Virus record (IMG/VR): IMGVR_UViG_3300042518_001688
Span: 19,409 to 83,408 of that record
DNA length: 64,000 bases
Source of the DNA: a virus
Direction: 5' to 3' (one strand)
In this document: positions 18,996-61,091 of the stretch, one piece after another
Layout of the letters: the number at the start of each line of letters is the position of its first letter
Position numbering within the stretch: position 1 is the stretch's first letter
Translations under genes and position numbers: made by a program
The notes under the pieces: generated by a model
Database searches by the model: none
Seen by the model: only the letters and a program-made list of their open reading frames with translations
Told to the model about the DNA's origin: nothing

Positions 18996-19730
18996 ATGCA
19001 GTTAATTAAAGATTCCCGTTTTTTGGTTGCAATTGATAAAGATGCTAGTTCACCTAATCCACAGGTTGCTATCTGGAAGGGACAGCATCGTTGTGTTGCT
19101 GAAAAGTTTTTACCTGATGATCCAACGCCTTCCCCGGAAAAGTGTGCAGAAACAATTATTAAACATCAGTTAGCCGGAGATAGAGGTCATTACTCTGTTC
19201 TTAGAAACGCATTTGTTAAGTTTCATTGCTTGGGTTTTCCCCATAGTGCCGTTTCTCAAATCACAAGGCATCAGGATTCGGCTTTTCTGGTTCAATCAAT
19301 GCGATATACAGGGAGACGGATTGTTGATTGTGCAGAATATGAATTACCTTTTGAAGATGTTTTTTATTTCCGACCAGTCGGCAGTTATTGCGATCGCCAG
19401 GGTAATAAGTACGATTACACTGCTGCTGATTTACTGGATGATAGAGCAGCTTCTTATAGATCAGCAGTTTTGTATAGTGAAAAGATTAGGGATGGACACT
19501 CTGAAGAACACGCTAGGGATTTTTTAACATATAACTTCCGTCAAGACTTCGATTTGAGTGGAGACTTACAAGCTATCTGGCATTTATTGGATCAGCGAAC
19601 CAAAGCTGATTCTCAAGCGGAGGTCAGGACACTAGCTTGGATGATGCTGGATTGCCTCAAAGAGTTTACCCCTGAACTCACCCAGTGGTATTTAGAGAAT
19701 AGAGCAGGGAAAGCTAGGTTAGCTCCATGA
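18996..19730 (+). CDS. thyX: flavin-dependent thymidylate synthase ThyX
   Basis: The ThyX signature RHRx7S appears as RHQ-DSAFLVQ-S (residues 91-101), with Gln replacing the third residue as seen in some families, followed by MRYTGRR. The protein is 244 residues, normal for the family. ThyX methylates dUMP using folate and FAD. ATG 18996 follows the dcd stop by one base. It completes the route from ribonucleotides through dCTP and dUMP to dTMP. Confidence 0.9.
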   Translation: MQLIKDSRFLVAIDKDASSPNPQVAIWKGQHRCVAEKFLPDDPTPSPEKCAETIIKHQLAGDRGHYSVLRNAFVKFHCLGFPHSAVSQITRHQDSAFLVQSMRYTGRRIVDCAEYELPFEDVFYFRPVGSYCDRQGNKYDYTAADLLDDRAASYRSAVLYSEKIRDGHSEEHARDFLTYNFRQDFDLSGDLQAIWHLLDQRTKADSQAEVRTLAWMMLDCLKEFTPELTQWYLENRAGKARLAP

Positions 19731-42364: not shown

Positions 42365-45300
42365 ATGAAATCCTCTACTCCACTTTTATCCAAATTTGAT
42401 TCCGTCTTTTCTCAATTTGCAAAAGATGATAATTCTCCATTGGATAAATTAGAAAATGAATTTGTCCAACGCATGATTACCCTTGTTCAAGCGGAAAGTA
42501 ATTCATTAATCAAATCTTTAAGGGGGGCAACATCAGAGGAAGATATAGATAAAGCCAAGTGGAATTTAATCCCCAGGATGCAACAATTATTGTGGTATCT
42601 ATGGCGCGATGGTTGGGCATTGGGTAAGGATACTGCTGTTAGAGAATTAGCCCTTGCCAAATTCACCACAAACAATGAACTAGCCGAGTTTGCTTCTGAT
42701 TCAGATAGTACGGGAAGCAGGCGATCGCTCCGCAATAAAACCCGAATCTCTAGCATAAAAACACCATTGGAGGATTCACGGGTTAAGAAAGCGATTGAAG
42801 ATAGAACTTTGGAATTATCTAACGATTACAGCGAAAGCACCAACAAGGAAATTAAAGATGCTTTTCGGGAGTTTAATAATAGCAAGGATAAGAAGGATGC
42901 AAGGGCTAAATTAGAGGAACGGATTGCAAGGGCGATCGGTGCTAATAATGAACAGAGCAACAAGCGAGTTCGAGATACTGCGGCTAGGGCAAAGGTTATT
43001 GCTAGGACTGAATTAACCGGTGCATACAACACAGCTAGGGTAGATTCATTTGCTGCTGCTGGTGTGAAAAGATTCCTATGGGTTGCCAACATAGTTCCAG
43101 GAAGAACTTGTAACCCCTGCTTGGAACGAAATGGGGTAATTTACACACTGGAAGAAATAAGGACTAATTTTCCTCCTTTACACCCCCACTGTAGGTGTAC
43201 CCTTAAACCCTTGCAAGAGGATGACGACAGGGTTAAAAACCAGAAGAAAGGTATTAAGGATGCGATCGCTCCTATAGCTGCTGGGTGGTTATTTGGTAAA
43301 GCCGCAGAGAAAGTTAGTGCAGCAGCGATGGCGGAAATAGATAAAATCCCTGACAAAGAGGAAAAGAAAAATGATATTGGCACTAAGTTGTTTATCGGCA
43401 TTAGTGCTGCATTAGGATTGGCTGGTATTTACTATTTAGTTACCAGAAACCCAACTGTTAAACAAGCCACACAAAGAGCAACCAAGGAAACTGTAGAAGA
43501 GCTTGGCGATCAGGTAGAAGCTTATCGTCAGAGGAAACAAGCCCAAGAGGGATTAACAGAAGATAAACAACCATCGGCATTAGGACAAGGGGCTGTTACA
43601 GCCGCATCTTTACCTCCATCGGTTCAGCAAAATTTACCTTCAGAGTTGGTTAATTCTAATGCCGACATTCGGAATATATCACCCCAGGAAATTAGTCGGT
43701 TAACTGGAATGTCGATCAGAGATGCAACTAGATTGAGATTGCAACTTGATGAGGAGTTAGCTAAAAATCCTGTCAAGCCTGAAAAGACTGTTGACAAGAT
43801 GAACAATAAGCAATTGAAAGCACTGGGTTTAACAAATAAACAAATTAATCAATTAAGGAGAATGAAGCGACAAGGACAATCTTTTGCTACCATTGATGAC
43901 TTGAAGAAAATCAAGGGGGTGAGCGATCGCAAGATTCAAGAGATAAAACGCAGGGTAGAAGAAGAAAGAGATCCTTCTTTAGTCTTGGGTGGCAAAAAGA
44001 TTGAGGAATTATCAACCAAAGAATTAAAAGAGTATTTGCGATTAAGCCAAAATCAAGCTGTAGCTGTTAGGGAATATTTGAGGAAAAACCGAATTACTAA
44101 AATTGAGGATTTAAGAAATGTCCCAGGTATAGGTAAAGAGACTGTGGCTAGGGCTGCTTATGGGGTGATGAGAACTACCCCCCGTGCTAATATCAATAAC
44201 TTTGGAAACGAGGGTGGAGTAAGTAACGTAAACCTACTTTCGGAACGGACTGGAATAAGTAGAAACCTTGCTCAGATAATTGCGGATGAAAGACAACAAA
44301 ATGGAAACTTTGCTGATATGGATGATTTTAGAAAACGAGTGAACAAGCGACTAAAAGATAGTGGTAGCAAGGTAAGGCTGGGTAAGTCAGTGATTAAAAA
44401 GATTAATGATAATGTGACGTTCCTGCCTAGTGGTGAGGAGGAAAAACCACTTATCATCCCTCCTAAAATAAACCCATCAAAACCACTACCCCAAAAACAG
44501 ACACGAATGGGTGATCCGAGAACACCGCAGGTAGAACCAGAGAGAATGGTAGCACCATCACCTCAGAAAAAAGTATTACCAGGATCTACAAGAATCAAAG
44601 GAAGACGGGTATCTCCAGAGGAACGAGTAAATGCAGCCAAACTGGAAGACGAAAGACAGTACAGGGAATTAGCCAAAGAAGTAGAGGCGTATCACCTCAT
44701 CCCTGGTACGAAAGGGAAAATCAGAGGACAAGTTAAACGACGGATTAGTGAGAATACAGCGATCGCTAGACAACAAGAAAATGCCTATGTAGCTGCGAAC
44801 AGTAGCGCGAATAGAGCTACTAGAGTTATAGATAGCCTTGAGGAAGATGTTAAGGCTCTAGAGGATGCTTACAGATCGGGTAACACTGAAAAAATAGGAG
44901 ATGCTAAAGAAGCGTATTTGAATCAAATAAAAAGGGTCGAAAGCCGATTAGATGAAATTACAGTACCATCATCTGATGATATAGATGCGGCTATTGAACA
45001 AACCAAAGTGGCGCGGAGTGCTGCTGAAAGATCAATCGCTAGTAACGCTCAACGCAATACCAGAAGAAAAGCTATTGAGGCTAGAATGAAAGCATCAAGG
45101 GCTGATACTTCTGAGTTAGAAAATGAGTTGCAACGTAATTACACATTAGAAAGGATAGATGACCAGATTGATAGTCTCGATAGGTTGTCAGCGAGTCTAC
45201 AGAATGATCCAAATAACGTCCGTGCAACTATTCAAAGAAATAAAGCAAGGTTGCAAGAATTAAAGGAGAGAGTAGCTAATGCTTCTGCTTTAGAAACTCC

Positions 45301-45694
45301 AACGGTAAAACCACAACCACAGCCCAGTAGATTTACATTGTTGCAACAAGAAATTAATGATATCGAGAGGCAGATACCCTTTGCTGAGTCCAAGCTAAAC
45401 GTTACTAACAGGGAGAAGGAAAAAAATGTAAATAGATTAGCTGGTATTGAAATAAGAATCAGGTCTAATGATGCTGGTCCTAATGCAGAAGTATTGAAAA
45501 AAGAAAAGGCAAAACTAGAGCGCGAGATTAGTAGATTAACAGCACAAGCGCGATCGCTATCTAGTGAATTAAGAGGATTGAAGTCTCAGTTATCTACTCT
45601 CAAGAAGCGAAGGAAAAGCAATAAGGATAACAGAGGATTTTCAAGAGGTGGAAAATTAGCAATGTTCGTATCGAACTTGAGAAATGGAATATGA
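42365..45694 (+). CDS. MuF-type minor head protein fused to helix-hairpin-helix repeats and a coiled coil, 1109 aa
   Basis: Residues 200-285 are a Mu gpF/SPP1 gp7 head-morphogenesis domain: RTELTGAYNTARVDSFAAAG, then a C-x2-C pair (RTCNPCLERNG) and HPHCRCTLKPL. A hydrophobic segment (LFIGISAALGLAGIYYLV) lies near 340-360. Three ComEA-like helix-hairpin-helix units follow near 475-530, 545-600 and 620-690 (FATIDDLKKIKGVSD; IEDLRNVPGIGKETVARA; FADMDDFRKRVN). The last 300 residues are coiled coil. The C-terminus RGGKLAMFVSNLRNGI carries an A-x-F tag. The standard MuF protein is far shorter; the DNA-binding extension suggests contact with packaged DNA. Confidence 0.8.
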   Translation: MKSSTPLLSKFDSVFSQFAKDDNSPLDKLENEFVQRMITLVQAESNSLIKSLRGATSEEDIDKAKWNLIPRMQQLLWYLWRDGWALGKDTAVRELALAKFTTNNELAEFASDSDSTGSRRSLRNKTRISSIKTPLEDSRVKKAIEDRTLELSNDYSESTNKEIKDAFREFNNSKDKKDARAKLEERIARAIGANNEQSNKRVRDTAARAKVIARTELTGAYNTARVDSFAAAGVKRFLWVANIVPGRTCNPCLERNGVIYTLEEIRTNFPPLHPHCRCTLKPLQEDDDRVKNQKKGIKDAIAPIAAGWLFGKAAEKVSAAAMAEIDKIPDKEEKKNDIGTKLFIGISAALGLAGIYYLVTRNPTVKQATQRATKETVEELGDQVEAYRQRKQAQEGLTEDKQPSALGQGAVTAASLPPSVQQNLPSELVNSNADIRNISPQEISRLTGMSIRDATRLRLQLDEELAKNPVKPEKTVDKMNNKQLKALGLTNKQINQLRRMKRQGQSFATIDDLKKIKGVSDRKIQEIKRRVEEERDPSLVLGGKKIEELSTKELKEYLRLSQNQAVAVREYLRKNRITKIEDLRNVPGIGKETVARAAYGVMRTTPRANINNFGNEGGVSNVNLLSERTGISRNLAQIIADERQQNGNFADMDDFRKRVNKRLKDSGSKVRLGKSVIKKINDNVTFLPSGEEEKPLIIPPKINPSKPLPQKQTRMGDPRTPQVEPERMVAPSPQKKVLPGSTRIKGRRVSPEERVNAAKLEDERQYRELAKEVEAYHLIPGTKGKIRGQVKRRISENTAIARQQENAYVAANSSANRATRVIDSLEEDVKALEDAYRSGNTEKIGDAKEAYLNQIKRVESRLDEITVPSSDDIDAAIEQTKVARSAAERSIASNAQRNTRRKAIEARMKASRADTSELENELQRNYTLERIDDQIDSLDRLSASLQNDPNNVRATIQRNKARLQELKERVANASALETPTVKPQPQPSRFTLLQQEINDIERQIPFAESKLNVTNREKEKNVNRLAGIEIRIRSNDAGPNAEVLKKEKAKLEREISRLTAQARSLSSELRGLKSQLSTLKKRRKSNKDNRGFSRGGKLAMFVSNLRNGI

Positions 45695-47488: not shown

Positions 47489-48871
47489 ATGCCTAAACGT
47501 CGCTCTTATAAAGAGCAGGTTGAACATTTTAGCTCACCCTATTTTGGACTCTGCACATTTGCTGACGGCGATGAACAGGTGTCCGATGACAAGATAGTAA
47601 AATCTGCACTGGTTATGGTTGAGGGTCATCACCGTGACTCTAATAATCGAGATCATGTATTCAGTGCAGCCCGTGTTAAGCGGATTGCCGATAGAACAAA
47701 CGAATGGTTAATGAATGGTGGTCGTGTTCCTTGGCAACGTGACCACAAAAAAGATCAGTTAAATAACATCGGTGATTTGGAAGGAACTTTAGAAGTTCGC
47801 CGAATCACCGAAGCTGATTTACCTAATCCCAGGCTGACAGGTTTGGTAGGTAAAATTGGTGCATTCACAACTTCATTAGTGGCCAAGGGTAAAGATGTTG
47901 TTGCTGAAGTATTAGCTGGCAGAATCAAAACCCTTAGTCCTGGTATTGATATTGAGAACGACGTTATCAAAGAAATATCAGCTACTCCTACTCCTGCCAT
48001 AGTTGGATTGTCTACCTTCAAAAAAGCAGAAGCTAAGTTTGCATTAACTTTAGCTGATGCCAAGGCAGAAGAGGAGCAGGAAGGGCAACTTGAGGAAACA
48101 CTGAAAGAATTAGCGGAAATGATTGCTGAAACCGCTAGTTCAATCATGTCTGCTACAGAGGAAGATTTGCAAGGTGCGTCACCTGAAGATTTGCTTTATC
48201 AGTTGGTTCAAGATGCTGCTAACGAAATAGCTATCACACTGGGATTAGGTGATGCTAACTCACCACCTTACGCAGATCCTAGTCAACAATACAACCCATA
48301 CCAACCACCAGGAATGATGGGGCAAACTGGTATGCCTCCTGCTGCACCTGTGCCTGGATATTTACAAAAACAACAAGGTTTTAGTCGTGGTGATAAATAC
48401 GCCAGCTTTACCCTTGCAGGTATAGAACGGGCTGAATTTTTCAGTAATCCATTTAACCGTCGTCGTCAACCTACTCTTGGCGAAAGAATAGGTGGTGCTG
48501 TTGGTACTGCTGTTAAAGGTGCTGCTTTGATTGGTGGTGGTGCGGCTGCTATTAGGTATGGTGGTGCTGGATTAAAAGGTGCAATGAGAGGCGGACGCAC
48601 TGCACTTAAAATGGTTAACAAATCCGGTGCTACTGGCGTTCAAAAAGGCATGGCAGGAGCAACTGGAGCAGGTAAAGGCTTTCTTAGCAATGCCAGAGGG
48701 CAACTATCTTCTGACTTAAAACGAGTTGGAAGTGCGATCGCTGGTACTGGTTCACAGGGAGGAATAAAACAGAGGATTGGACAAGCTGTTTCTAGGGCTG
48801 GTAAGACTGTTGGTGGCTCAACTCAAAATCGCGTCAAGAAGCGGAGAAGTGGAATAATTGACATTGAATAG
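47489..48871 (+). CDS. prohead protease (Mu gpI-like) fused to a module-type tail
   Basis: Residues 30-180 resemble Mu gpI-type serine proteases: VKSALVMVEGHHRDSNNRDH, RVPWQRDH, then a beta core and RIKTLSPGIDI … SATPTPAIVGL. A helical, acidic scaffold-like region follows (about 195-260). The C-terminal third has FSRGDKYASFTLAGIERAEF and then a Gly/Ala-rich basic segment, the same architecture as the small head-cluster proteins. Gene order after MuF is the Mu order. Candidate self-processing sites are EAKF (near 182), YASF (near 311) and RAEF (near 320). Confidence 0.65.
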   Translation: MPKRRSYKEQVEHFSSPYFGLCTFADGDEQVSDDKIVKSALVMVEGHHRDSNNRDHVFSAARVKRIADRTNEWLMNGGRVPWQRDHKKDQLNNIGDLEGTLEVRRITEADLPNPRLTGLVGKIGAFTTSLVAKGKDVVAEVLAGRIKTLSPGIDIENDVIKEISATPTPAIVGLSTFKKAEAKFALTLADAKAEEEQEGQLEETLKELAEMIAETASSIMSATEEDLQGASPEDLLYQLVQDAANEIAITLGLGDANSPPYADPSQQYNPYQPPGMMGQTGMPPAAPVPGYLQKQQGFSRGDKYASFTLAGIERAEFFSNPFNRRRQPTLGERIGGAVGTAVKGAALIGGGAAAIRYGGAGLKGAMRGGRTALKMVNKSGATGVQKGMAGATGAGKGFLSNARGQLSSDLKRVGSAIAGTGSQGGIKQRIGQAVSRAGKTVGGSTQNRVKKRRSGIIDIE

Positions 48872-48897
48872 GAAAAGGAGTTGTAGGTAAAACTACA

Positions 48898-48954
48898 ATG
48901 ACTGCCGCTTCTGGTGCTAGGTCTGGAGCAAAAGGAGTTAGTCGCGCCTTCTAG
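48898..48954 (+). CDS. possible 18-residue remnant of a module gene
   Basis: In the 166-base gap after the protease gene a frame reads MTAASGARSGAKGVSRAF. Its Gly/Ala/Ser composition matches the neighbouring modules. It may be debris rather than a working gene. Confidence 0.25.
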   Translation: MTAASGARSGAKGVSRAF

Positions 48955-49037
48955 TTCAATTAGAAAAAATATTGGTACTAGACTGGGTAATCGAATGATG
49001 TAAGGGAAAAACTGAGATAGTTTTAAGGTTAAAAAAA

Positions 49038-49481
49038 ATGGGCAAATTAAGCAATTACACATTAGCCGGAATTGAGGCGCAACTTTACCCAACTCGTGCT
49101 GCTGAATTTCGCCGGGGCAAGGACAAGAAAAAGAGAAAAACCAGATCACTTAGAGACAACATCATGGGTACGACCACTGCTGGCAGAATTGCTAGAGGTA
49201 TTGGTGCTGCTGGTGCATTGGCTTTAGCTGGTGGTGCAGCTAGATATGGCCGTGTAGCTATGCGGGGTATAAATAGGGGTGCTGGTGCATCTGGAGTAAA
49301 CAAAGGTTTCCGTGATTCTGCAATGGGTGGAGCTAAAGAGGTTCGCGATGCTGTTGCTCGTGACGTTCAAGCTATACGAAGTCGTGCCGGAAACGCTGCT
49401 CAAACTGTCCGCGATCGCGCCGGAAGTGCTGCAACAGGATTTAGAGATCGGATGAGCAATAGATTCAAGAAACAAAAATAA
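49038..49481 (+). CDS. head-cluster module protein 1, 147 aa
   Basis: The N-terminus (NYTLAGIEAQLYPTRAAEF) ends in the A-x-F tag, followed by RRGKDKKKRKTRSLRDN, GTTTAGRIARG and a Gly/Ala-rich hydrophobic stretch. The TLAGIE segment also occurs at the protease C-terminus. The second half is basic with an R-x-R-A-G-N pattern. Very high Lys, Arg, Gly and Ala content fits a DNA-contacting internal head protein; function is inferred. Confidence 0.65.
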   Translation: MGKLSNYTLAGIEAQLYPTRAAEFRRGKDKKKRKTRSLRDNIMGTTTAGRIARGIGAAGALALAGGAARYGRVAMRGINRGAGASGVNKGFRDSAMGGAKEVRDAVARDVQAIRSRAGNAAQTVRDRAGSAATGFRDRMSNRFKKQK

Positions 49482-49486
49482 AACTT

Positions 49487-49882
49487 ATGCAATTATACCC
49501 CTCTCGATCCGGTATCCTAGCTGAGTTTGCCCGCAAGAAAGGCAGTAAAGACAAGAAAAAAAGGAAGCGATCGCTCACAGACAATCTTTTCGGTACGACC
49601 ACTGCCGGCAAATTAGTTAGAGGTGGGTTGCTGACGGGAGGGGCGTTAGTTGCGGGCAAGTTCCGCCCTAAAAAAGTACCTGTCGCTAAACCCCGAATGA
49701 TTGCTGGACGTGGAGAAACAAGCGCACCTTTACAGGTAAACGACTACATAGGAGTTAAGCCTAGAACCTATAAGGACGGTATTGTGGATGGACTGAGAGA
49801 TATGAAACCAAGCGTAACTCCTGCTTTGCCTCCAGGTAAAAAAAGAGGCAGAGGCAGACCCAAAAAGAATTTTAATGTTTAG
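49487..49882 (+). CDS. head-cluster module protein 2 with AT-hook, 131 aa
   Basis: Tag ILAEF (residues 10-14), then ARKKGSKDKKKRKRSLTDNL, FGTTTAGKLVRGG and a short hydrophobic part. The C-terminus KKRGRGRPKKNFNV contains the GRP core of an AT-hook, which binds the minor groove of AT-rich DNA. Five bases separate it from the previous gene. Confidence 0.65.
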   Translation: MQLYPSRSGILAEFARKKGSKDKKKRKRSLTDNLFGTTTAGKLVRGGLLTGGALVAGKFRPKKVPVAKPRMIAGRGETSAPLQVNDYIGVKPRTYKDGIVDGLRDMKPSVTPALPPGKKRGRGRPKKNFNV

Positions 49883-49898
49883 TCGAGAGGAGAAAATA

Positions 49899-50852
49899 AT
49901 GCGACTAATTTCTTCTCGCAATAGAGATTTAGCTACATTTGCCCGTAAAAAAGGCAGCAGGGATAGAAAAAAACGTAAGAAGCGATCGCTCCGAGACAAC
50001 TTATTTGGTACAACCACCACTGGCAGAGTCGCTAGGGGTGCGGGTGCTTTATTGGCAACTGGAGCAACATTGAAGTATGGCAAGCCTAAAGTTTTGGCTA
50101 AAGCCGCATCTGTTAAGCGACAAGCCGAGAAAGTTGTTAACTCAACTCAACAGATAGGCAATGCTGCCCAAGATATAGGACAGGCTGCTCAAAAGATTGG
50201 CAATGTCGTCGAGAAAGTCGGAAACGTGGTTGACGACATTAGAAATATTCCAGTCAATGTTAAACAAAAATTCCAGTCAATGTTAGCACCAACTCGTAAA
50301 GCTATAAAACAACTTAGTCCATCTCCTGTTGTTCCAGATCCTCCCAATTCATCACCCGTATATAACGGATACGACAGCCTAGAAGATTATGTGAAAAACA
50401 GAAAACGCAGACGTTTTAATAACGGAAATCCTATTGCTAAGTTTGCTCGTAAAAAAGGTAGCAAAGATAAAAAGAAAAGAAAGCGATCGCTCACTGACAA
50501 CTTATTTGGTACGACAGCTACGGGTCGAGTAGTGCGTGTGGCTGGATTGGCTGCTGGATTAGGTGGACTTCGTTATGGAGGTGCTGCATTAGGAGAAATT
50601 GGAAAAGCCAGAGAGATGTTGAAAAAAGCTGGTAAATCTGCGCCTTTGGTTAAGGATGGGCAAAGAGCATATATGAAAGATGCCTTAAAATTAGACGCTC
50701 CTGCTGCTGCTAGAGAAAGATTTGCTATGGATGTGGCTAAATTAACCAGAAATAGAGGTAAATACGCTGTCGCTAAAATATCCAGGGATATACGTAGACT
50801 CGGTATGGATCTTAGAGCAAGAGATATTTCTATGAAGACAAGGAGAGAATGA
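49899..50852 (+). CDS. head-cluster module protein 3, two modules, 317 aa
   Basis: ATG 49899 with GAGAGGAG upstream is chosen over ATG 49875. Module one: DLATF then ARKKGSRDRKKRKKRSLRDN and GTTTTGRVARG. A coiled segment with NAAQDIGQAAQKIGN repeats follows. Module two begins near residue 185 with PIAKF, ARKKGSKDKKKRKRSLTDN and GTTATGRVVR. Two modules in one frame look like two fused genes that a protease could separate. Confidence 0.65.
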   Translation: MRLISSRNRDLATFARKKGSRDRKKRKKRSLRDNLFGTTTTGRVARGAGALLATGATLKYGKPKVLAKAASVKRQAEKVVNSTQQIGNAAQDIGQAAQKIGNVVEKVGNVVDDIRNIPVNVKQKFQSMLAPTRKAIKQLSPSPVVPDPPNSSPVYNGYDSLEDYVKNRKRRRFNNGNPIAKFARKKGSKDKKKRKRSLTDNLFGTTATGRVVRVAGLAAGLGGLRYGGAALGEIGKAREMLKKAGKSAPLVKDGQRAYMKDALKLDAPAAARERFAMDVAKLTRNRGKYAVAKISRDIRRLGMDLRARDISMKTRRE

Positions 50853-51282
50853 TGAAATCACTAAATAGAATGATGGCTAAATTTGGCAGGGGTAAGGACA
50901 AGAAACCCCGTAAAAAAAAAGAAACCTAGCTGATGTGGTTGGTTGGGATACATACAACAAGAACCCCAGTAAGTTCACGCCGTTAGATTTGGGATTAAGT
51001 GTAGTCCCTATAGCTGCTCTTGGAGCAAGTGTTGGAACAGATAGAGCGCAAGCAAAACTGATTAAAATTCGCAAAGATTTAGATGCTACAGACATACCAG
51101 CTATTCGAGAGGCAATTAAGTCAGATCCAGATAGGGCTGTTAAAGTTGCAAGAAAAATTGCCGCACCAGGGAAGACCATTGGTAAGTACGCATTAGGTGG
51201 TGCAGCCATAGGGGCTGGTATATATGGGGGTGAATTATTGGCTAGACGTGCATGGAAGAGATTTAAAAACAGGAATAAGTGA
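50852..51282 (+). CDS. head-cluster module protein 4, split by a -1 frameshift at A9
   Basis: ATG 50852 (overlapping the prior stop as TGATG) encodes MKSLNRMMAKFGRGKDKKPR and then reaches nine A residues at 50912-50920 and a stop at 50927. A -1 shift in the A-run yields KKKRNLADVVG, which continues into the frame ending at 51282, and this join restores the usual module pattern. Either a programmed frameshift or a homopolymer length change in the assembly explains it. The second part is a basic helical protein with a Gly-rich segment (ALGGAAIGAGIYGGELLA). Confidence 0.6.
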
Positions 51283-52598
51283 TGAAACTAGGTGGTCGTG
51301 GTCGAGACAAGAAACCAAGAAAACGCAAGCTGCTGGCAAACGCTGGCAGTGTTGCGCTTAACGCTGGTAACACTGGATTAGCTACTGCTGGGACATTAGG
51401 TGTAGCCGGATTAATAGCCAGTCCTCAAAATGCAGCACTCCAAGGTCGCCTAGCTAGAGCCGGATTATTAGCAGGTGCGGGGTATGGAGTTTATCAGGGA
51501 ATAAAGAAATTGAAGTCTAAGAAAAATATCAATTATTCTCAATCAATAAATAAAATGGGAAACATTGCCAAATTTAGAAATACAGAAGTCAATACTGTTG
51601 AACCTGCTGAATACCACAAACATTTATTTGACGCAGCTAGAGCGCAAATTGAAGAAGCGTTTAATGCAGGTGAATTAACTGAACAAGAAGCGATCGCATT
51701 AGAAATTAATGCCATTGGAGAACTGAGAGATCGGCTATCCGATGAAAACATTGATTACCTCTGTGAAGAATTGGGTTATAACCCCGAAGAAGTCGCTAAT
51801 TACTTGGATGCCCAAGAATACGAAGACGACGAAGAAGACGATGAAGAAGACGAAGAGGCTAATTACTCCAGAGGGACTAAATTAGCCGAGTTCCAATCTG
51901 GGAATGCCTTTGGGTACAATCTCCAAACTCTACTTTTAGAAGATGGATACGAGGATGTTACATCTGGTGCTGCTGCTTTAAGTAATGCGCTAGGTGTAAC
52001 AGGTGAAGAAGCTGCTGGTTTGTTGACTGGCGATTATGTTCCCACAAAAGAAACGATCGCACTCTTGGAAGAAATCTTTGAGTTAGATGAAGACCAAGCT
52101 GAAGCTTTAGCTAGTTCTGCTTACGAAGCATGGGAAGAGTCAGGACTCCTTGAGGAAGACGAAGAAGATGGTGATGAGGATAACGAAGCTAATTATCGCT
52201 TACACCAAGCAGAATCACAAATAGCTAAGTTTGAAACTCGTGAACTATTGCGTGATTCCTTAGCTGAATTGGAAATAGTTGCCCAACAAGGTTTACAAGA
52301 GTGGTGGCTACCTCCTGCTGCTTATCGGGCAATTATGGGCAATGATTCCACTGAACAACAACGAATTGCATCCTTTTCTGCTGCTTGTAAAGAAGACGGT
52401 GTGGAATTAGGCGATCGCCTTTATGCCATGCAGTTTGCGATCGCTTGTTTCAAAGAAGCTGGTCCATTATACGGCAACCAGATTATTGAAGAACAGCTAT
52501 CTAAGACCCCTGATGAAGCAAAGTTTGAGGCTTCTGTGGAAACTCAAGCACAACGTAATCACCGTCGTCGGATGCAAAACAATCCTTTACCCCAGTAG
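51282..52598 (+). CDS. acidic scaffold-like polyprotein with several A-x-F tags, 438 aa
   Basis: The N-terminus is a module without tag (GGRGRDKKPRKRKLLANAG plus a hydrophobic part). The rest is acidic and helical, with runs such as EYEDDEEDDEEDEEANYSRG. Tags occur at NIAKF (near residue 94), KLAEF (near 204), QIAKF (near 315) and EAKF (near 416), dividing it into segments that each resemble a small domain. Position between protease and capsid genes fits a scaffold degraded at maturation. Confidence 0.55.
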   Translation: MKLGGRGRDKKPRKRKLLANAGSVALNAGNTGLATAGTLGVAGLIASPQNAALQGRLARAGLLAGAGYGVYQGIKKLKSKKNINYSQSINKMGNIAKFRNTEVNTVEPAEYHKHLFDAARAQIEEAFNAGELTEQEAIALEINAIGELRDRLSDENIDYLCEELGYNPEEVANYLDAQEYEDDEEDDEEDEEANYSRGTKLAEFQSGNAFGYNLQTLLLEDGYEDVTSGAAALSNALGVTGEEAAGLLTGDYVPTKETIALLEEIFELDEDQAEALASSAYEAWEESGLLEEDEEDGDEDNEANYRLHQAESQIAKFETRELLRDSLAELEIVAQQGLQEWWLPPAAYRAIMGNDSTEQQRIASFSAACKEDGVELGDRLYAMQFAIACFKEAGPLYGNQIIEEQLSKTPDEAKFEASVETQAQRNHRRRMQNNPLPQ

Positions 52599-53542: not shown

Positions 53543-54094
53543 ATGTCAAAACTAGCCAGATTCGCAAGACCTAAAGGTGCGAAGGATAAGAAAAAACGTA
53601 AGTCTAATCTATTACGTAATATTGCTATTGGTGCAGGTGGCACTGCGTTGCTTAGCAGTGCGGCTTATCTCGGTAGAGGTAAAATTGCTGGATTGATGAG
53701 CAAAGGGAAACCGAAGCCAGGTGTAACTAAAGTTCCTTACTCGCAGTTATCGAAAGAAGAATTGTTGTCAATGGGTGGCAAAGGTCGCATAAACGCAAGA
53801 AAAGCTGTTGTGTCAAGAACGAGTCAGAAGGACGATTTAAAGTATGGAGTGACACCAAATAGTGTTGATGATTTTGAAAACATTAATGCTATTAATAACG
53901 CTATCAATACCAATCGCCCTGGTTTTACTAAAGAGATGCTGAGGAAAATGAAAAAAGAAAAAGCGGTAAGAATAAAGGCTTACGCTGATCGGCTTAGAAA
54001 AGAAGGTGCTTATTATTCTTCATCTTCGCAGACTACCAATTTCCATGAATCAACAATGATGTCTCTAGCTAGTTTTAACCGCAAATGGAAATAA
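53543..54094 (+). CDS. head-cluster module protein 5, 183 aa
   Basis: MSKLARFARPKGAKDKKKRK opens the protein, then a hydrophobic segment (IAIGAGGTALLSSAAYLG) and a long charged helical part. The C-terminus MMSLASFNRKWK is a second tag, very like the start of the next gene (MLTLASF). Confidence 0.65.
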   Translation: MSKLARFARPKGAKDKKKRKSNLLRNIAIGAGGTALLSSAAYLGRGKIAGLMSKGKPKPGVTKVPYSQLSKEELLSMGGKGRINARKAVVSRTSQKDDLKYGVTPNSVDDFENINAINNAINTNRPGFTKEMLRKMKKEKAVRIKAYADRLRKEGAYYSSSSQTTNFHESTMMSLASFNRKWK

Positions 54095-54114: not shown

Positions 54115-54564
54115 ATGCTAACTTTGGCTTCTTTCCGTAGAGGAAAAGACAGGAAGAAAAGAAAATCTCGTAAACGTAAATATTTAGAATCTGCTGCTCA
54201 AGGTGCAGGTATTGGTGTTGTCGCAGTACCTACCGCAGTTGGCATCAGGGAAACGTTTAGGGCTGAAAATGTAGGTAAACCACTAGGTCAAAGCGTCGCA
54301 CGAAACGTATATGCTGGTGTGGCTCGTGGTGCTGCGCGGGGTACAGTTCGCGGTATTTATAGAGGTGCTTTAGCTGGGATGATTGGTGACAGCCTAGAAA
54401 AAGGAGTATCAACACTTTCATCTAAAGGTATTCTGGGTAAGGTACTATTAGGTAGTGCTGCTGCTGGTGCTGCTGGTGGCGTAATAGCCAGAAGGATGAG
54501 AGAAAAAGACCGCGAACGTAAATCTATCCCCGGTAAACTTAAAAGATTCCTGGGAGGTAGGTAA
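54115..54564 (+). CDS. head-cluster module protein 6, 149 aa
   Basis: MLTLASFRRGKDRKKRKSRK is the tag plus basic stretch. The rest has Gly/Ala zipper-like segments (GVARGAARGTVRGIYRGALA and LLGSAAAGAAGGVIA) that could enter membranes. Basic C-terminus. Its stop overlaps the next start as TAATG. Confidence 0.65.
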   Translation: MLTLASFRRGKDRKKRKSRKRKYLESAAQGAGIGVVAVPTAVGIRETFRAENVGKPLGQSVARNVYAGVARGAARGTVRGIYRGALAGMIGDSLEKGVSTLSSKGILGKVLLGSAAAGAAGGVIARRMREKDRERKSIPGKLKRFLGGR

Positions 54565-55304
54565 TGCTTGACAATATTAATCCTTTCTACCGCAAGAGAA
54601 AAGGCAAGTTGCAACTCGTTAGAGGTTTTCTCCGCAAGAAGAGAAAGTCTTTGTCAGCGATTAAAAAGAGAGTAATTCAATCTATCCCTGATAAAAAAGA
54701 TTTATCTAATATTAAGAAAAAAGTAATTAAAGTTCTCCCCAAGAAAAAGAAGAAAGATCCTAACTTATTGGGAGAAGGTAAAAACGGTAGAGTTATTGCC
54801 AAGGGTCCATTTACAATCCGCAAGGAATATAAAAAACGTCGGTTCTTAGATCCTGCAAGGAAATTGTTGGATGGACAAACTGCATGGGATAGGGAATACG
54901 GCATACAAAAAGTATTAGCCGATAGGGGTCTAGCTCCCAAAGTGAAACGTAAAGGTGAAAGATTTATTGAAATGGAACGAGTTTATGGTGAAACCATTGA
55001 CTCGAAAATGAAAAACGGTGAAGCGAGCGATCGCACTCAAAGAAAGTACGGCAAGAAATTAGCTAGGGAAGTGAAGCGGATGCACGATGCTGGTGTTTCC
55101 CATAATGATTTACATGGCGAGAATGTTATGGTTGGTCCATTCGGTGGCATGAAAGTAATTGATTATGGCTGGGCAAATGATAAAGGCAGACCCCTGAAGA
55201 TGAGGGAACGCAGGAAAGACTATGATAAGGTTCTCTCTAGGCATAAGGGTAAAAAGTACAAGGCGTTTAGGGATAGCTTTGAAAAGTCTTATTATGATTA
55301 TTAA
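54564..55304 (+). CDS. protein-kinase-like protein with basic N-terminus, 246 aa
   Basis: The first 65 residues are Lys/Arg-rich (FLRKKRKSLSAIKKRVIQSI) and resemble the module cargo. A kinase-like fold follows: Gly-rich loop GEGKNGRV, IRKEY with a candidate ATP lysine, catalytic loop HNDLHGENVM and metal loop IDYGWA (a DFG variant). It is closest in style to RIO or small phage and archaeal kinases. It is co-translated with a module gene inside the head operon, so it may be packaged and delivered. Substrate unknown. Confidence 0.7.
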   Translation: MLDNINPFYRKRKGKLQLVRGFLRKKRKSLSAIKKRVIQSIPDKKDLSNIKKKVIKVLPKKKKKDPNLLGEGKNGRVIAKGPFTIRKEYKKRRFLDPARKLLDGQTAWDREYGIQKVLADRGLAPKVKRKGERFIEMERVYGETIDSKMKNGEASDRTQRKYGKKLAREVKRMHDAGVSHNDLHGENVMVGPFGGMKVIDYGWANDKGRPLKMRERRKDYDKVLSRHKGKKYKAFRDSFEKSYYDY

Positions 55305-55492: not shown

Positions 55493-56638
55493 ATGGCTTA
55501 TATTGCATCCTGGCTGAATGAACATCAGCAAACAAAGGAAGCTGATTTAGTTATAGATGAAACTCTAACTTGGCTTAAACAACGGTCTGGTTTGTTGGAT
55601 AAGTATGTCCCGTTAAAGACATATTCAAGCCGCAATTTCTTGATGTATGTTGTCAACAAAATCCGTACCGTTGCTTCTATTATTTCTTATGGAGCAGAGC
55701 CTCCGGTAGTTCGTTTGGGCAACTTCAACACCATTGACGCAAAAATGTTCAAGGTGGGTTTAAGTGTCTATTACGATGAAGATCAACAGTGGCAAATGAA
55801 GGAAGCAATGGAATTAGCGAGACTAAAAAATGTCTCTGTTCAAGACCAGGTTCTTCCTGATGGTTCAATTTTAAAAGGGTCAAACGAAGACCTTGCTAAT
55901 TTAATTCTTGGCAGCAATGGGACAATCGCAGACATTACTAGGTCTATTGGTGAATTATTAAATTATTTAACTTGGCAAGCACTTCAGAACGGTTCTGTGA
56001 ACTATACAGATCCTCGTACTAATGCCACTCCATTGGTACTGGATTACAAAAATCCTTCTGGCGGTTATAACCATTTCCCTGCGGCTTTAACTGGTAATGA
56101 TAGCTGGGATCGTCCCAACACAGCGAATGCTCTGGCTGTGCTTGAGGAAGATGTTGAAACTTTCACTACCACCAATGGTTTCAAGCCTGATTTAATTGTC
56201 ATGCCGTTAAAAGTGCGTCGGGCGATGCTGAACCAGGAATCTACTCGTCAAGCGGTTGCCAGCATGAGCAACAACTCTGCGATGTTGGTCGCCAATGCTG
56301 TTGGTTCTGTTGGTCCAGAAATGTTAATGGGTGTACTGGAACGCCGGGAACTTCCCCCAATCATCACATTTGATGAACAGTTTGAAATGGAAGACTCTAA
56401 CAAGAACCAGAACAAAATGCGGTTCTTAAACAACAACCGTTATGTATTCTTGACCAAGAATATGGGCGAACGGGCAATGGGTCCCACTTTGGAAGGTGAT
56501 GGAAGAGAAGGTGCTTATGTTGTTACCCGTGAAGTTCAGAAATTCCCCCCTGTAGATGCTACCCAAGGTGTGGCCACTGCGTTACCTGCCTTTGGTAATC
56601 CCAAATTGTTCTTCTCCCGTCAAGTAATCACTGAATAG
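55493..56638 (+). CDS. major capsid protein
   Basis: The 381-residue product fits the E-type/HK97-fold capsid proteins: an N-terminal arm, YVPLKTYSSRNFLMYVVNKI, FKVGLSVYYDEDQQWQMKEA, a central domain with NGSVNYTDPRTNATP and FTTTNGFKPDLIVMPLKVRR, and a C-terminal RFLNNNRYVFLTKN strand. It follows protease, scaffold and decoration genes in standard order. No A-x-F tag is visible at its start, so it may not be cleaved. Confidence 0.8.
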   Translation: MAYIASWLNEHQQTKEADLVIDETLTWLKQRSGLLDKYVPLKTYSSRNFLMYVVNKIRTVASIISYGAEPPVVRLGNFNTIDAKMFKVGLSVYYDEDQQWQMKEAMELARLKNVSVQDQVLPDGSILKGSNEDLANLILGSNGTIADITRSIGELLNYLTWQALQNGSVNYTDPRTNATPLVLDYKNPSGGYNHFPAALTGNDSWDRPNTANALAVLEEDVETFTTTNGFKPDLIVMPLKVRRAMLNQESTRQAVASMSNNSAMLVANAVGSVGPEMLMGVLERRELPPIITFDEQFEMEDSNKNQNKMRFLNNNRYVFLTKNMGERAMGPTLEGDGREGAYVVTREVQKFPPVDATQGVATALPAFGNPKLFFSRQVITE

Positions 56639-56958: not shown

Positions 56959-57624
56959 ATGCCCCGCTATTCAAAGCTGGCTAATTTTGCCAGAACTAGA
57001 GGGGCGAAAGACAAACGCCCCCGTAAAAAACGTAGTGATTTATTGGATAGAGAGTACAAGGGTGCGCGGACTATAGAGATGCGTACCCGTTCTATAGCTA
57101 ATTTAGGCAGAACATTAAACTCTATAGGTAGTTCAGTCAGAGAAGCTCGATTAACTGCTAAATGGCTGGGTATCAACCCATCTAGAAAACGCAGTGATCC
57201 GATGTCAATTATTAGAAATGCCCGTTCTGTGTCAGATACGGGGAATAGTATACTTCGATTAGGTAGAGGGTTGTTTGGTATGCGATCGCTCAGTTCAATG
57301 ATGGCTGAGTTCCGCAGGGGTAAGGATAAGAAAAAGAGGAAAATTAGGAAATCCACAATTTTACAAAATGCACTTTATGGTGCAGCTTTAACAGGTGCGC
57401 CTGGTGCGATTAGTGGAGCAACAGAAGAAATGCTTTCAACTAGAGTCCCTATTGGCAAGCTTCGCAATGGACAAACCATTGATGTCTTTAGCACCAAACC
57501 ATCTGTGATCCTGAAGGGTGCGCTAAAAGGTGCTATTAGAACCGCACCAATAGGAGCAGCACTAGGGGCTGGCAGTTTAATTGCGGCTCGTGGATTACGG
57601 AAATTAATGGAAAGGGAGATATAA
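56959..57624 (+). CDS. head-cluster module protein 7, two modules, 221 aa
   Basis: Module one: KLANFARTRGAKDKRPRKKR. Module two starts near residue 110 with MRSLSSMMAEFRRGKDKKKR, including an internal Met that mirrors the starts of separate module genes, so this looks like an in-frame fusion. A hydrophobic Gly/Ala segment (APIGAALGAGSLIAARGLRK) ends the protein. Confidence 0.65.
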   Translation: MPRYSKLANFARTRGAKDKRPRKKRSDLLDREYKGARTIEMRTRSIANLGRTLNSIGSSVREARLTAKWLGINPSRKRSDPMSIIRNARSVSDTGNSILRLGRGLFGMRSLSSMMAEFRRGKDKKKRKIRKSTILQNALYGAALTGAPGAISGATEEMLSTRVPIGKLRNGQTIDVFSTKPSVILKGALKGAIRTAPIGAALGAGSLIAARGLRKLMEREI

Positions 57625-57626
57625 TT

Positions 57627-58007
57627 ATGCGATCGCTCAATTCAATGATGGCTGAATTTGCTAGAGGCAAAGACAAGAAAAAGAGAAGAAAGCGAACCTT
57701 AGCGGGTTCTGCTGGTAAAGGTGCTGCTATTGGCATGGGAGTACCTTTAGCTCTTGGCACTTTAGCTGGTGCTACTGGTGCTGGTATATATGCAGCAAAA
57801 GCAGGAATGAAACCAGGAATGGTTGGGCTTTCTATACCTGCTGGTGGACTTGGTGGACTAGCGGCTACCGCAAATAAAGCCCCTGGTAAAGTATTAGCTG
57901 CTGGTGCTTTAGGTGGTGGAATCGGTGCTGGCTTGTATGGTGCAGATAGATTAAAAGAGCGTAACGGTAATCGCTCACCTTTAAATAGAATCGCAGGGAA
58001 AAGGTAG
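57627..58007 (+). CDS. head-cluster module protein 8, 126 aa
   Basis: MRSLNSMMAEFARGKDKKKR then KRTLAGSAGKGAAIGMG and an extended Gly/Ala-rich hydrophobic region with zipper spacing (AGALGGGIGAGLYGADRLKE). Starts two bases after the previous stop. Confidence 0.65.
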   Translation: MRSLNSMMAEFARGKDKKKRRKRTLAGSAGKGAAIGMGVPLALGTLAGATGAGIYAAKAGMKPGMVGLSIPAGGLGGLAATANKAPGKVLAAGALGGGIGAGLYGADRLKERNGNRSPLNRIAGKR

Positions 58008-58009
58008 TT

Positions 58010-58384
58010 ATGAAATTAATATCTTCTCGATATGATTTAGCTGAGTTTCGCAGGGGTAAAGACAAGAGGCAGAGGAAGAAAAAGTCTTTACTAGGTGCTA
58101 TTGGTAAAGGTGCTTTAATTGGTGCTGTTATCCCAGTAGGTGTAGGCGCATTGGGAATGGCAGGACTTGGGGCATCATCAACAGCTAAATCTATACCCCA
58201 AAGGATTTTTAATACTGGCGTAAGCTCATCTATAGGAGGTGCGATGGGAGGCGCACTTGCTCCTGCTACTGCTTTAGCTGGTGGTGCTACTGCTGCTACT
58301 GCTTACGGTATTAACAAGCTGAGAAATAAAGACAAAAAGCCAACAGTGCGATCGCGGTTAAACAACTTAATTCCTGGTAGGTAA
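58010..58384 (+). CDS. head-cluster module protein 9, 124 aa
   Basis: Tag RYDLAEF, basic RRGKDKRQRKKKSLLGAIGK and a long hydrophobic Gly/Ala region (GALIGAVIPVGVGALGMAGL). Two bases from its neighbour. Confidence 0.65.
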   Translation: MKLISSRYDLAEFRRGKDKRQRKKKSLLGAIGKGALIGAVIPVGVGALGMAGLGASSTAKSIPQRIFNTGVSSSIGGAMGGALAPATALAGGATAATAYGINKLRNKDKKPTVRSRLNNLIPGR

Positions 58385-59108: not shown

Positions 59109-59831
59109 ATGAAATCACTAAATACTATGGTAGCTGAATTTGGCAGAGGTAAGGATAAAGCCCCAAGAAAGAAAAGGGCTAACCTCAGAAATCATGTTCT
59201 CGGTGGGACGATAGTTGGCGGTATTGCTGGCAATGCACTCACAAAACCTATTACTGTTCCCATTGAGTTAGTTGGTGGTTTAGCTGGTAGTGCGATCGGC
59301 GCGGGTGCAGGTGCAGCTACTTATGGAGCAAGAAGGGCATGGCGTGGAGGAAAAGCATTAGTAGCGAAACTTAGAGGAAAAGAACCGGAGAAGTACGATT
59401 ATATGAAAAGTTTAAGTAGAATGACGGCTGAATTTGCTCGTACTAGAGGCGCAACAGATAAAAAACCCAGGAAGAGAGGAACATTAGCAGGATACATAGG
59501 CAAAGGTGCTGCGATTGGTGCGCTAGGCATGGTGGGAGGAAGTGCTTTGTTGGGCGGAGTTCATGGTGCGGCTGTAGCCAAACAGGCAGCCAAAGGTTTA
59601 GGCATTCCTTTTAAACCAATACGCACTCGACTTCAAGTAGGTGCTGGAGGTGCAATGCTTGAAGGTATGAAAGGTGCTATGGTAGCCCCTGGTGCTGCGA
59701 TCGCGGGCGGAGGAATTGGTGCTGGTGCTTATGGGATCAATAAACTTCGTAATCGGAACAAAGAGGAAAAACCCACATCACGACTACAATCAGCAAGAAA
59801 GAAACTCGGTGGCATGATTGGCGGAAACTAA
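59109..59831 (+). CDS. head-cluster module protein 10, two modules, 240 aa
   Basis: Module one: MKSLNTMVAEFGRGKDKAPR then RKKRANLRNHVLGG. Module two begins near residue 98 with MKSLSRMTAEFARTRGATDK and KPRKRGTLAGYIG. Both have Gly/Ala hydrophobic tails. A fusion of two module genes, with the second Met preserved. Confidence 0.65.
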   Translation: MKSLNTMVAEFGRGKDKAPRKKRANLRNHVLGGTIVGGIAGNALTKPITVPIELVGGLAGSAIGAGAGAATYGARRAWRGGKALVAKLRGKEPEKYDYMKSLSRMTAEFARTRGATDKKPRKRGTLAGYIGKGAAIGALGMVGGSALLGGVHGAAVAKQAAKGLGIPFKPIRTRLQVGAGGAMLEGMKGAMVAPGAAIAGGGIGAGAYGINKLRNRNKEEKPTSRLQSARKKLGGMIGGN

Positions 59832-60606: not shown

Positions 60607-60677
60607 GATTATTTTGACTGGCAGGTCGATCCTAATTATCGGATATGGGAACTAAAAAAGCAAAGAGGGTAATTAAC

Positions 60678-61091
60678 ATGAAGTCACTTAATAGGATGAT
60701 GGCTGAGTTTGGCAGGGGTAAGGATAAAAAGAAGAGGAAGAAGAAGTTTCTGGGAACTGTAGGAAGTAATGCCGTTCTTGGTGCAATTGGAGGAGCATTA
60801 TATCCTACAGCATCCATGCTTGCAATATCTCGTATGATGCCAAAAGGCATGACACCACCATTGAATTACCGAAATATACCTATAATGATGGCTCGAAATG
60901 CGGTTATCGGAGCTACACTTGGTGGCGTTGGTAGCGGTATTAATTACGGAGCAGGGAAGATCGTAGAGTCGAGTGGCAACTTAATTGAAAAAAAATTCGG
61001 TAAACCACCTACTCCTCGGCAAAAAGTGGGAAGAGGTGTAAAACGGACAGGAGAAAGGTTGGGTAACTATATTTCTGGTGACAAAAAATGA
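60678..61091 (+). CDS. head-cluster module protein 11, 137 aa
   Basis: ATG 60678 behind AGAGGGT gives MKSLNRMMAEFGRGKDKKKR, nearly the same start as module 4 at 50852. Hydrophobic and Gly-rich middle (AVIGATLGGVGSGINYGAGK) and basic C-terminus. Stop overlaps the next start as ATGA. Confidence 0.65.
   Translation: MKSLNRMMAEFGRGKDKKKRKKKFLGTVGSNAVLGAIGGALYPTASMLAISRMMPKGMTPPLNYRNIPIMMARNAVIGATLGGVGSGINYGAGKIVESSGNLIEKKFGKPPTPRQKVGRGVKRTGERLGNYISGDKK

Follow-up and report, generated by a model that had tools for sequence, protein, structure and literature searches.

A recurring A-x-F tag in the head proteins of a virus contig and its relatives as the predicted site of their own maturation protease

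The stretch of DNA analyzed here, referred to as the window, comprises 64,000 nucleotides (positions 19,409 to 83,408) of the 83,408-base IMG/VR virus record IMGVR_UViG_3300042518_001688. Its + strand carries a head gene cluster that runs from a MuF protein (42365) through a maturation protease (47489), basic modules and an acidic scaffold (51279) to the major capsid protein (MCP; 55493), with further modules up to 60645. A short tag, A-x-F, recurs along this cluster. The original prediction took it for a possible recognition site of the prohead protease. That proposal now gains support from the persistence of the tag in relatives, its conserved positions, its place at gene joints, the starts of leaderless genes and a modelled protease fold like that of T4 gp21. 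The features that carry the argument are given below; labels such as L052 denote relatives.

47489 to 48871, + strand: head maturation protease polyprotein; catalytic domain at amino acids (aa) ~30-170, acidic linker at aa 185-307, basic Gly-zipper module at aa 318-460
48032 to 48040, + strand: tag EAKF (aa 181-184; A182-K-F184) directly behind the catalytic domain, a predicted self-cleavage site
48401 to 48409, + strand: tag YASF (aa 304-307; A305-S-F307) in the C-terminal tail, in conserved columns
48431 to 48439, + strand: tag RAEF (aa 314-317; A315-E-F317) ahead of the basic C-terminal module, in conserved columns
51279 to 52598, + strand: scaffold polyprotein; basic module at aa 1-99, then acidic scaffold, with six A-x-F
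51567 to 51575, + strand: tag IA97KF (NIAKF) at the joint of basic module and scaffold, found in the sequence
51885 to 51893, + strand: tag LA203EF (KLAEF), with AEF in the same column in L052, L105, L058, L099 and L103
52224 to 52232, + strand: tag IA316KF (QIAKF), A316 in 10 of 11 sequences
52368 to 52376, + strand: tag RIA364SF, A in 10 of 11 (the eleventh has S) and F366 in 11 of 11
52518 to 52526, + strand: tag EA414KF, with ATANFSAS at the matching place in Pam2-type scaffolds
42365 to 45694, + strand: MuF/minor head protein with HHH motifs; tags ELA107EF and, at the C-terminus, KLA1099MF
55493 to 56638, + strand: MCP (phrog_29, E 2e-25), free of the tag

Searches of a phage collection with the MCP and the protease identified the Pseudanabaena phages PA-SR01 and Pam2 as relatives. 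Their protease, scaffold and MCP are orthologous to those of the window (27-33% overall identity; about 31% for the MCP) and carry the same tags, whereas their module sequences differ and their MCP has a tagged C-terminal tail. Scans of viral contigs added further lineages: Pam2-type phages, two found through a DNA pattern for the basic motif of the modules, and L066, L067, L088, L099, L103, L104 and L105. In bacterial and archaeal genomes, two scans yielded no prophage relatives. The proteases of these lineages are mostly 30-35% identical to that of the window overall, and 33-51% across the catalytic domain. As in the window, lineages with a sufficiently complete cluster have tags and the gene order protease, modules, scaffold, MCP. 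The tag is kept where proteases and MCPs are 30-40% identical, while the sequence flanking it differs. The L002 relative is 99.9% identical and overlaps the downstream part. The tag is undescribed in the PA-SR01 and Pam2 records and the papers on them; the PA-SR01 paper shows sodium dodecyl sulfate polyacrylamide gel electrophoresis of proteins, and mass spectrometry is mentioned for Pam2 (PMC9382816).

A Pfam search found no protease family in the 47489 protein, and sequence-profile searches found no relative of solved structure. All 11 lineage proteases match phrog_976, head maturation protease (best E 1.5e-7; 0.025 for the window protein alone). An AlphaFold2 (AF2) model of the trimmed domain, built with 11 lineages, reached a mean predicted local distance difference test (pLDDT) score of 70.5, with residues ~30-170 mostly above 70; the full-length protein with a shallow alignment gave 35. 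A Foldseek search of the PDB with the model returned no match at E<=0.001. In VIA-align, T4 gp21 (5jbl) is the top match (Z 10.2; 3.1 Å over 126 residues), followed by 22 herpesvirus protease chains (Z 8.0-5.2) and, from 3.5 down, by unrelated folds. The BFVD matches to the model are named prohead or capsid maturation protease. Judged from the model, the 47489 protease belongs to the T4 gp21/herpesvirus fold. H86, S150 and E162 are invariant in 11 lineages, and conservation together with fold predicts S150 and H86 as the catalytic pair. The third catalytic residue is Asp in gp21 and in gp245 of phage SPN3US, and His in herpesviruses; behind S150 there is no Asp at the gp245 spacing (S153-D178).

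The three protease tags named in the original prediction, EAKF, YASF and RAEF, are all present. A182-K-F184 lies in a stretch (residues 170-187) with pLDDT <50 in the model, and most lineages in a 13-sequence protease alignment have a tag near this place (EAKF, DAKF, RAEF, DAEF, NASY, TANF, EAAF). Tags also recur in the protease tail as YASF, QAAF, QAAY, IAAF, LAAF, LAVF, VASF and LAQF. Across the 195 columns behind the catalytic domain, A305 is kept in 9 of 10 lineages and F307 in 9 of 10 (Y in the tenth), which places both among the best-conserved columns of an otherwise divergent tail; A315 and F317 are each kept in 7 of 7 where the column is present. Cutting the protein at all tags would, as computed, yield a near-neutral catalytic part (aa 1-184), a linker of isoelectric point (pI) 4.1 and a module of pI 12.0. 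In L103:4967-6258 the protease frame is divided into two overlapping frames, by a sequencing error or a frameshift.

The acidic protein was originally read as starting at 51282 with four tags. NIAKF, KLAEF, QIAKF and EAKF are indeed there, and RIASF at A364 and AIACF at A389 bring the count to six; the open reading frame (ORF) opens with GTG at 51279, the ATG at 51282 being its second codon, and its first 99 aa form a basic module. A364 and F366 are among the best-conserved columns of otherwise divergent scaffold regions. Scaffold genes of relatives (e.g., L052:11909) begin at about window residue 106, directly behind the tag IAKF at residues 97-99. The computed products of cutting at all tags are a module of pI 11.5 and pieces of pI 4.1-4.6. 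The MuF protein carries KLAMF near its C-terminus, as had been noted, and its ELA107EF has a counterpart in similar context, ELSAEF at aa 137 of the Pam2 and PA-SR01 MuF proteins.

The alignment of the window MCP with its relatives begins at residue 1. Maturation by removal of an HK97-type delta domain was set aside because the scaffold is a separate gene and the window MCP is free of the tag. Pam2-type MCPs (L003:14813-16063, L004:14827-16077) have a C-terminal tail of ~20 residues with NLAEF, which is missing from the window MCP and is possibly a removable tail.

Tag counts separate the head cluster from the rest of the virus, the comparison that the original prediction had named as its check; equal frequency, which would have refuted the prediction, was not seen. 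The 20 head-cluster proteins contain 27 A-x-F against 12.9±3.4 in residue shuffles (maximum 26 in 2000 shuffles), while the remainder of the virus stays at chance level (42 vs 49 expected). The tag falls inside the first 25 aa in 9 of the 20 head proteins, where 1.0 is expected. PA-SR01 (head 29 vs 13.9; rest 105 vs 112) and Pam2 (head 29 vs 14.7; rest 119 vs 119) behave alike, but the counts are not fully independent, given how close these two phages are to each other and the paralogy of the window modules. With the window and PA-SR01 pooled, A.F ranks second among 2082 residue pairs, behind GxxxG. The head proteins of Nodularia phage kac65v151, a control whose protease matched the model in fold, are at chance (9 vs 9.5 expected). 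Chance alone supplies one A-x-F per ~400 residues of the head cluster, and lone internal copies (AIACF; two in 52605) may be meaningless.

The modules of the window are listed here; their leaders, of 7-24 aa, end in the tag.

49038 to 49481, + strand: module; leader, AAEF, RRGKDKKKRK, basic Gly-zipper body
49487 to 49882, + strand: module; leader MQLYPSRSGILAEF, then ARKKGSKDKKKRK
49875 to 50852, + strand: two fused modules, tags LATF (aa 20) and IAKF (aa 188)
50852 to 51282, + strand: module; leader MKSLNRMMAKF, then GRGKDKKPRKKK; frame break at an A9 run (50912), body in ORF 50935-51282
53543 to 54094, + strand: module; leader MSKLARF, SLASF near the C-terminus
54115 to 54564, + strand: module; MLTLASF, then RRGKDRKKRK
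56959 to 57624, + strand: two fused modules, tags LANF (aa 8) and MAEF (aa 116)
57627 to 58007, + strand: module; MRSLNSMMAEF, then ARGKDKKKRR
58010 to 58384, + strand: module; MKLISSRYDLAEF, then RRGKDKRQRK
59109 to 59831, + strand: two fused modules, tags VAEF (aa 9) and TAEF (aa 107)
60645 to 61091, + strand: module amid tail-completion genes; ...MKSLNRMMAEF, then GRGKDKKKRK

The list bears out the claim that most modules start with a tag: it stands once in 49038, 49487, 53543, 54115, 57627, 58010 and 60645, twice in 49875, 56959 and 59109, and as MMAKF ahead of the frame break in 50852, which is either an assembly error or slippage. SLASF lies at or near the C-terminus of 53543, as had been noted. 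The modules have a net charge of +13 to +25 and bear hydrophobic stretches rich in GxxxG, which might let them insert in membranes upon ejection. Modules of this kind are also fused ahead of the scaffold and behind the protease. Tag-bearing modules occur among tail genes as well, outside the head cluster proper (window 60645-61091, L002:12331-13302).

To keep A-x-F itself out of the selection, 53 non-redundant modules were located by the downstream motif GSKDKxxR or GKDKxxR. An F or Y stood at a fixed upstream place in 42 of 53, and in 49 of 53 if a shift of 1-2 residues was allowed. The remaining four are leaderless genes. Three have Met at the same place (MARKLGSKDK, MPRTIGSKDK, MGRRIGSKDK), although for MPRTI (L069) and MGRRI (L073) the start is our reading, as the mechanical ORF call reaches further upstream; in the fourth, MIKRRGKDK, Met is close to the place. 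From their sequences, these leaderless paralogues appear to begin at the predicted mature N-terminus. With positions numbered from the predicted cut, P3 in the anchored set is A in 22, S in 10, V in 6 and I in 5 of 52, P2 is free, and P1' is mostly A, G or S. Among the 42 tags in strict register, 14 are internal to longer chains. A binomial P computed for this set takes no account of homology and is not to be read as a true probability. The codons of the tag vary (GCT/GCC/GCA, TTT/TTC). In relatives the tag is looser, with A > S > V/I at P3 and F > Y at P1.

Joints, where the start of a gene in one Pam2-type phage corresponds to the inside of a gene in another, give a second view of the same positions. 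[AS]x[FY] is found at 32 of 46 joints vs 26% of random windows; the 14 joints without a tag often lack it because the alignment begins beyond the joint. At the clearest, the PA-SR01 gene start MPPSNYSASF corresponds to aa ~512 of an L051 polyprotein at 80% identity.

The observed enrichment and conservation of the tag, its position at module joints and the conserved His and Ser, taken with the modelled fold and the analogy to T4, make it likely that the phage's own 47489 protease recognizes and cuts [A>S>V/I]-x-[F/Y], and would do so to remove leaders, to process itself, to destroy the scaffold and to release modules. We infer that the scissile bond probably lies directly behind the aromatic residue. 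The chief alternative is a docking motif, in which leader and A-x-F bind the scaffold or capsid interior and stay uncut. Leaders are specific to a lineage and conserved within it (MFFLSD..., M[KR]SLNxM...), as expected of a binding peptide. Docking does not account as well for tags behind the catalytic domain, in the protease tail and repeatedly in the scaffold, or for tags at the junctions within fused chains where the component parts occur as individual genes in other phages. Moreover, the nearly constant F or Y at P1, next to a free P2, looks like a protease specificity, and T4 leaders perform both jobs. Docking without cutting is on balance unlikely.

Cutting by a host enzyme, such as a Prp-type cysteine protease, is highly improbable. 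Its appeal lies in the known substrates of Prp, which are cleaved at F↓A: ribosomal L27 and, in phage 80alpha, scaffold and capsid (PMC9405229). The known Prp site LQFF↓ASKKG also resembles LAEF↓ARKKG. The Prp family PF04327 was not found in the virus record (3 of 14 control genomes were positive), a negative that covers the possibly incomplete virus record and no host genome. Cyanobacteria are not among the Prp users named in PMC9405229, and this phage group encodes a maturation protease of its own, itself tag-bearing. The last alternative, that duplication of a leader-bearing gene plus chance A-x-F created a pattern with no site behind it, fits the clear paralogy of the window modules and is nonetheless very hard to credit, given that the tag also occurs, with varied codons, in non-homologous proteins (protease, scaffold, MuF, Pam2-type MCP tail) and persists in relatives despite different flanks. 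Prp-type host cutting and pure paralogy were both set aside.

Several points weigh against cutting by the phage protease. Paralogy inflates the tag statistics, and a tag this short necessarily includes chance copies. The tag at 182-184 is not universal: L067 has RANL, which lacks the aromatic residue, and none is seen in L088 and L099. The L104 protease tail has LLNF in place of AxF, the L050 MCP tail lacks the A, and the window MCP has no tag at all. RxAxF of the scaffold sits within a conserved region and may be structural. Cleavage by the 47489 protease is a prediction from sequence and model. Finally, those phage proteases of this fold whose sites were consulted cut after Glu, and among them an aromatic P1 would be a novelty.

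Known systems offer close parallels. SPN3US gp245 cuts after A-X-E at 14 sites and sheds its own 64-residue C-terminal propeptide, the phiKZ protease site is S/A-X-E, and T4 leaders of ~10 residues address internal proteins and are then cut off (PMC10052503, PMC5694885, PMC9026906). With T4 the window phage shares the modelled protease fold and short leaders on basic proteins; head cutting of multiple substrates at a P3-x-P1 motif and scaffold destruction are known for T4 and predicted here. With SPN3US gp245 and phiKZ gp175 it shares A-x or S/A-x ahead of P1 with P2 free and, as a prediction, a self-cut C-terminal propeptide behind the catalytic domain with several sites; those phages are giant myoviruses, and this likeness rests on the form of the site. 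Sites of the T4, phiKZ and SPN3US type end in Glu, whereas the P1 of the tag is Phe or Tyr. A-x-F fits the P3-x-P1 form of these proteases, with Phe/Tyr for Glu. Unlike T4, the window phage has its modules as paralogues in long arrays and in polyproteins, with some joined to protease and scaffold, and a siphovirus-type gene order around the MuF protein. The likeness to Prp, L27 and 80alpha is a predicted cut between Phe and A(S/R)KKG at a head-protein N-terminus, but Prp is a host Cys-His enzyme, while the protease here is phage-encoded, with a modelled gp21/herpes fold and conserved His and Ser.

If the phage protease does cut at the tag, head maturation may proceed as follows. The short N-terminal leader and tag would bring the basic glycine-zipper modules into the scaffold core, like the capsid-targeting sequences of T4. 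Once the shell has formed, the protease would cut itself behind its catalytic domain and chop the acidic scaffold at the tags, and the acidic pieces would leave. It would also remove leaders, including those between modules fused in polyproteins, and the freed modules, with new N-termini like ARKKGSKDKKKRK, would remain with the DNA. That the modules are packaged and bind DNA we infer from their charge and the T4 analogy. The predicted mature MCP of the Pam2/PA-SR01 type would lack TTFNNADGLTVIS.

Some neighbors of the modules are of a different kind. A protein kinase-like gene (window 54564-55304; Pkinase E 7e-9, net charge +41) lies amid them and has no A-x-F. Its N-terminus, PFYRKRKGKLQLVRGFLRK, resembles a second basic motif, KVKSYVRKGKVVRSYDR-like, which recurs at one terminus or the other in many proteins of the head clusters (L052, L058, L099, L103, L105, L002:12331-13302 and window 54564). 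Two module-like proteins have enzyme domains, each matched with a score below cut-off. L052:6325-7410 is kinase-like and carries this second motif (PI3_PI4_kinase 1e-4); L103:3424-4659 is serine-hydrolase-like, with GHSSGG (Lipase_3 6e-4), and in it a leader, a tag and a basic stretch come first.

A wider proposal, which we regard as a serious possibility though a little short of probable, is that this phage group relies on an aromatic-P1 protease and on leader plus tag as an address by which whole arrays of basic modules, membrane-active or DNA-binding and in some cases with enzymes (L103, L052), enter the head, where polyprotein processing would release them; the tag alone would then predict proteins ejected into the host. 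Through the analysis, genes that had no annotation become parts of a testable pathway of head maturation whose substrates, cut sites and ejected proteins are predicted from their sequences, and the two cultured relatives, PA-SR01 and Pam2, make it checkable at the bench. An aromatic P1, if true, would broaden the specificity known for phage proteases of the gp21/herpes fold, and the module arrays would offer a natural cargo-loading address for comparison with T4.

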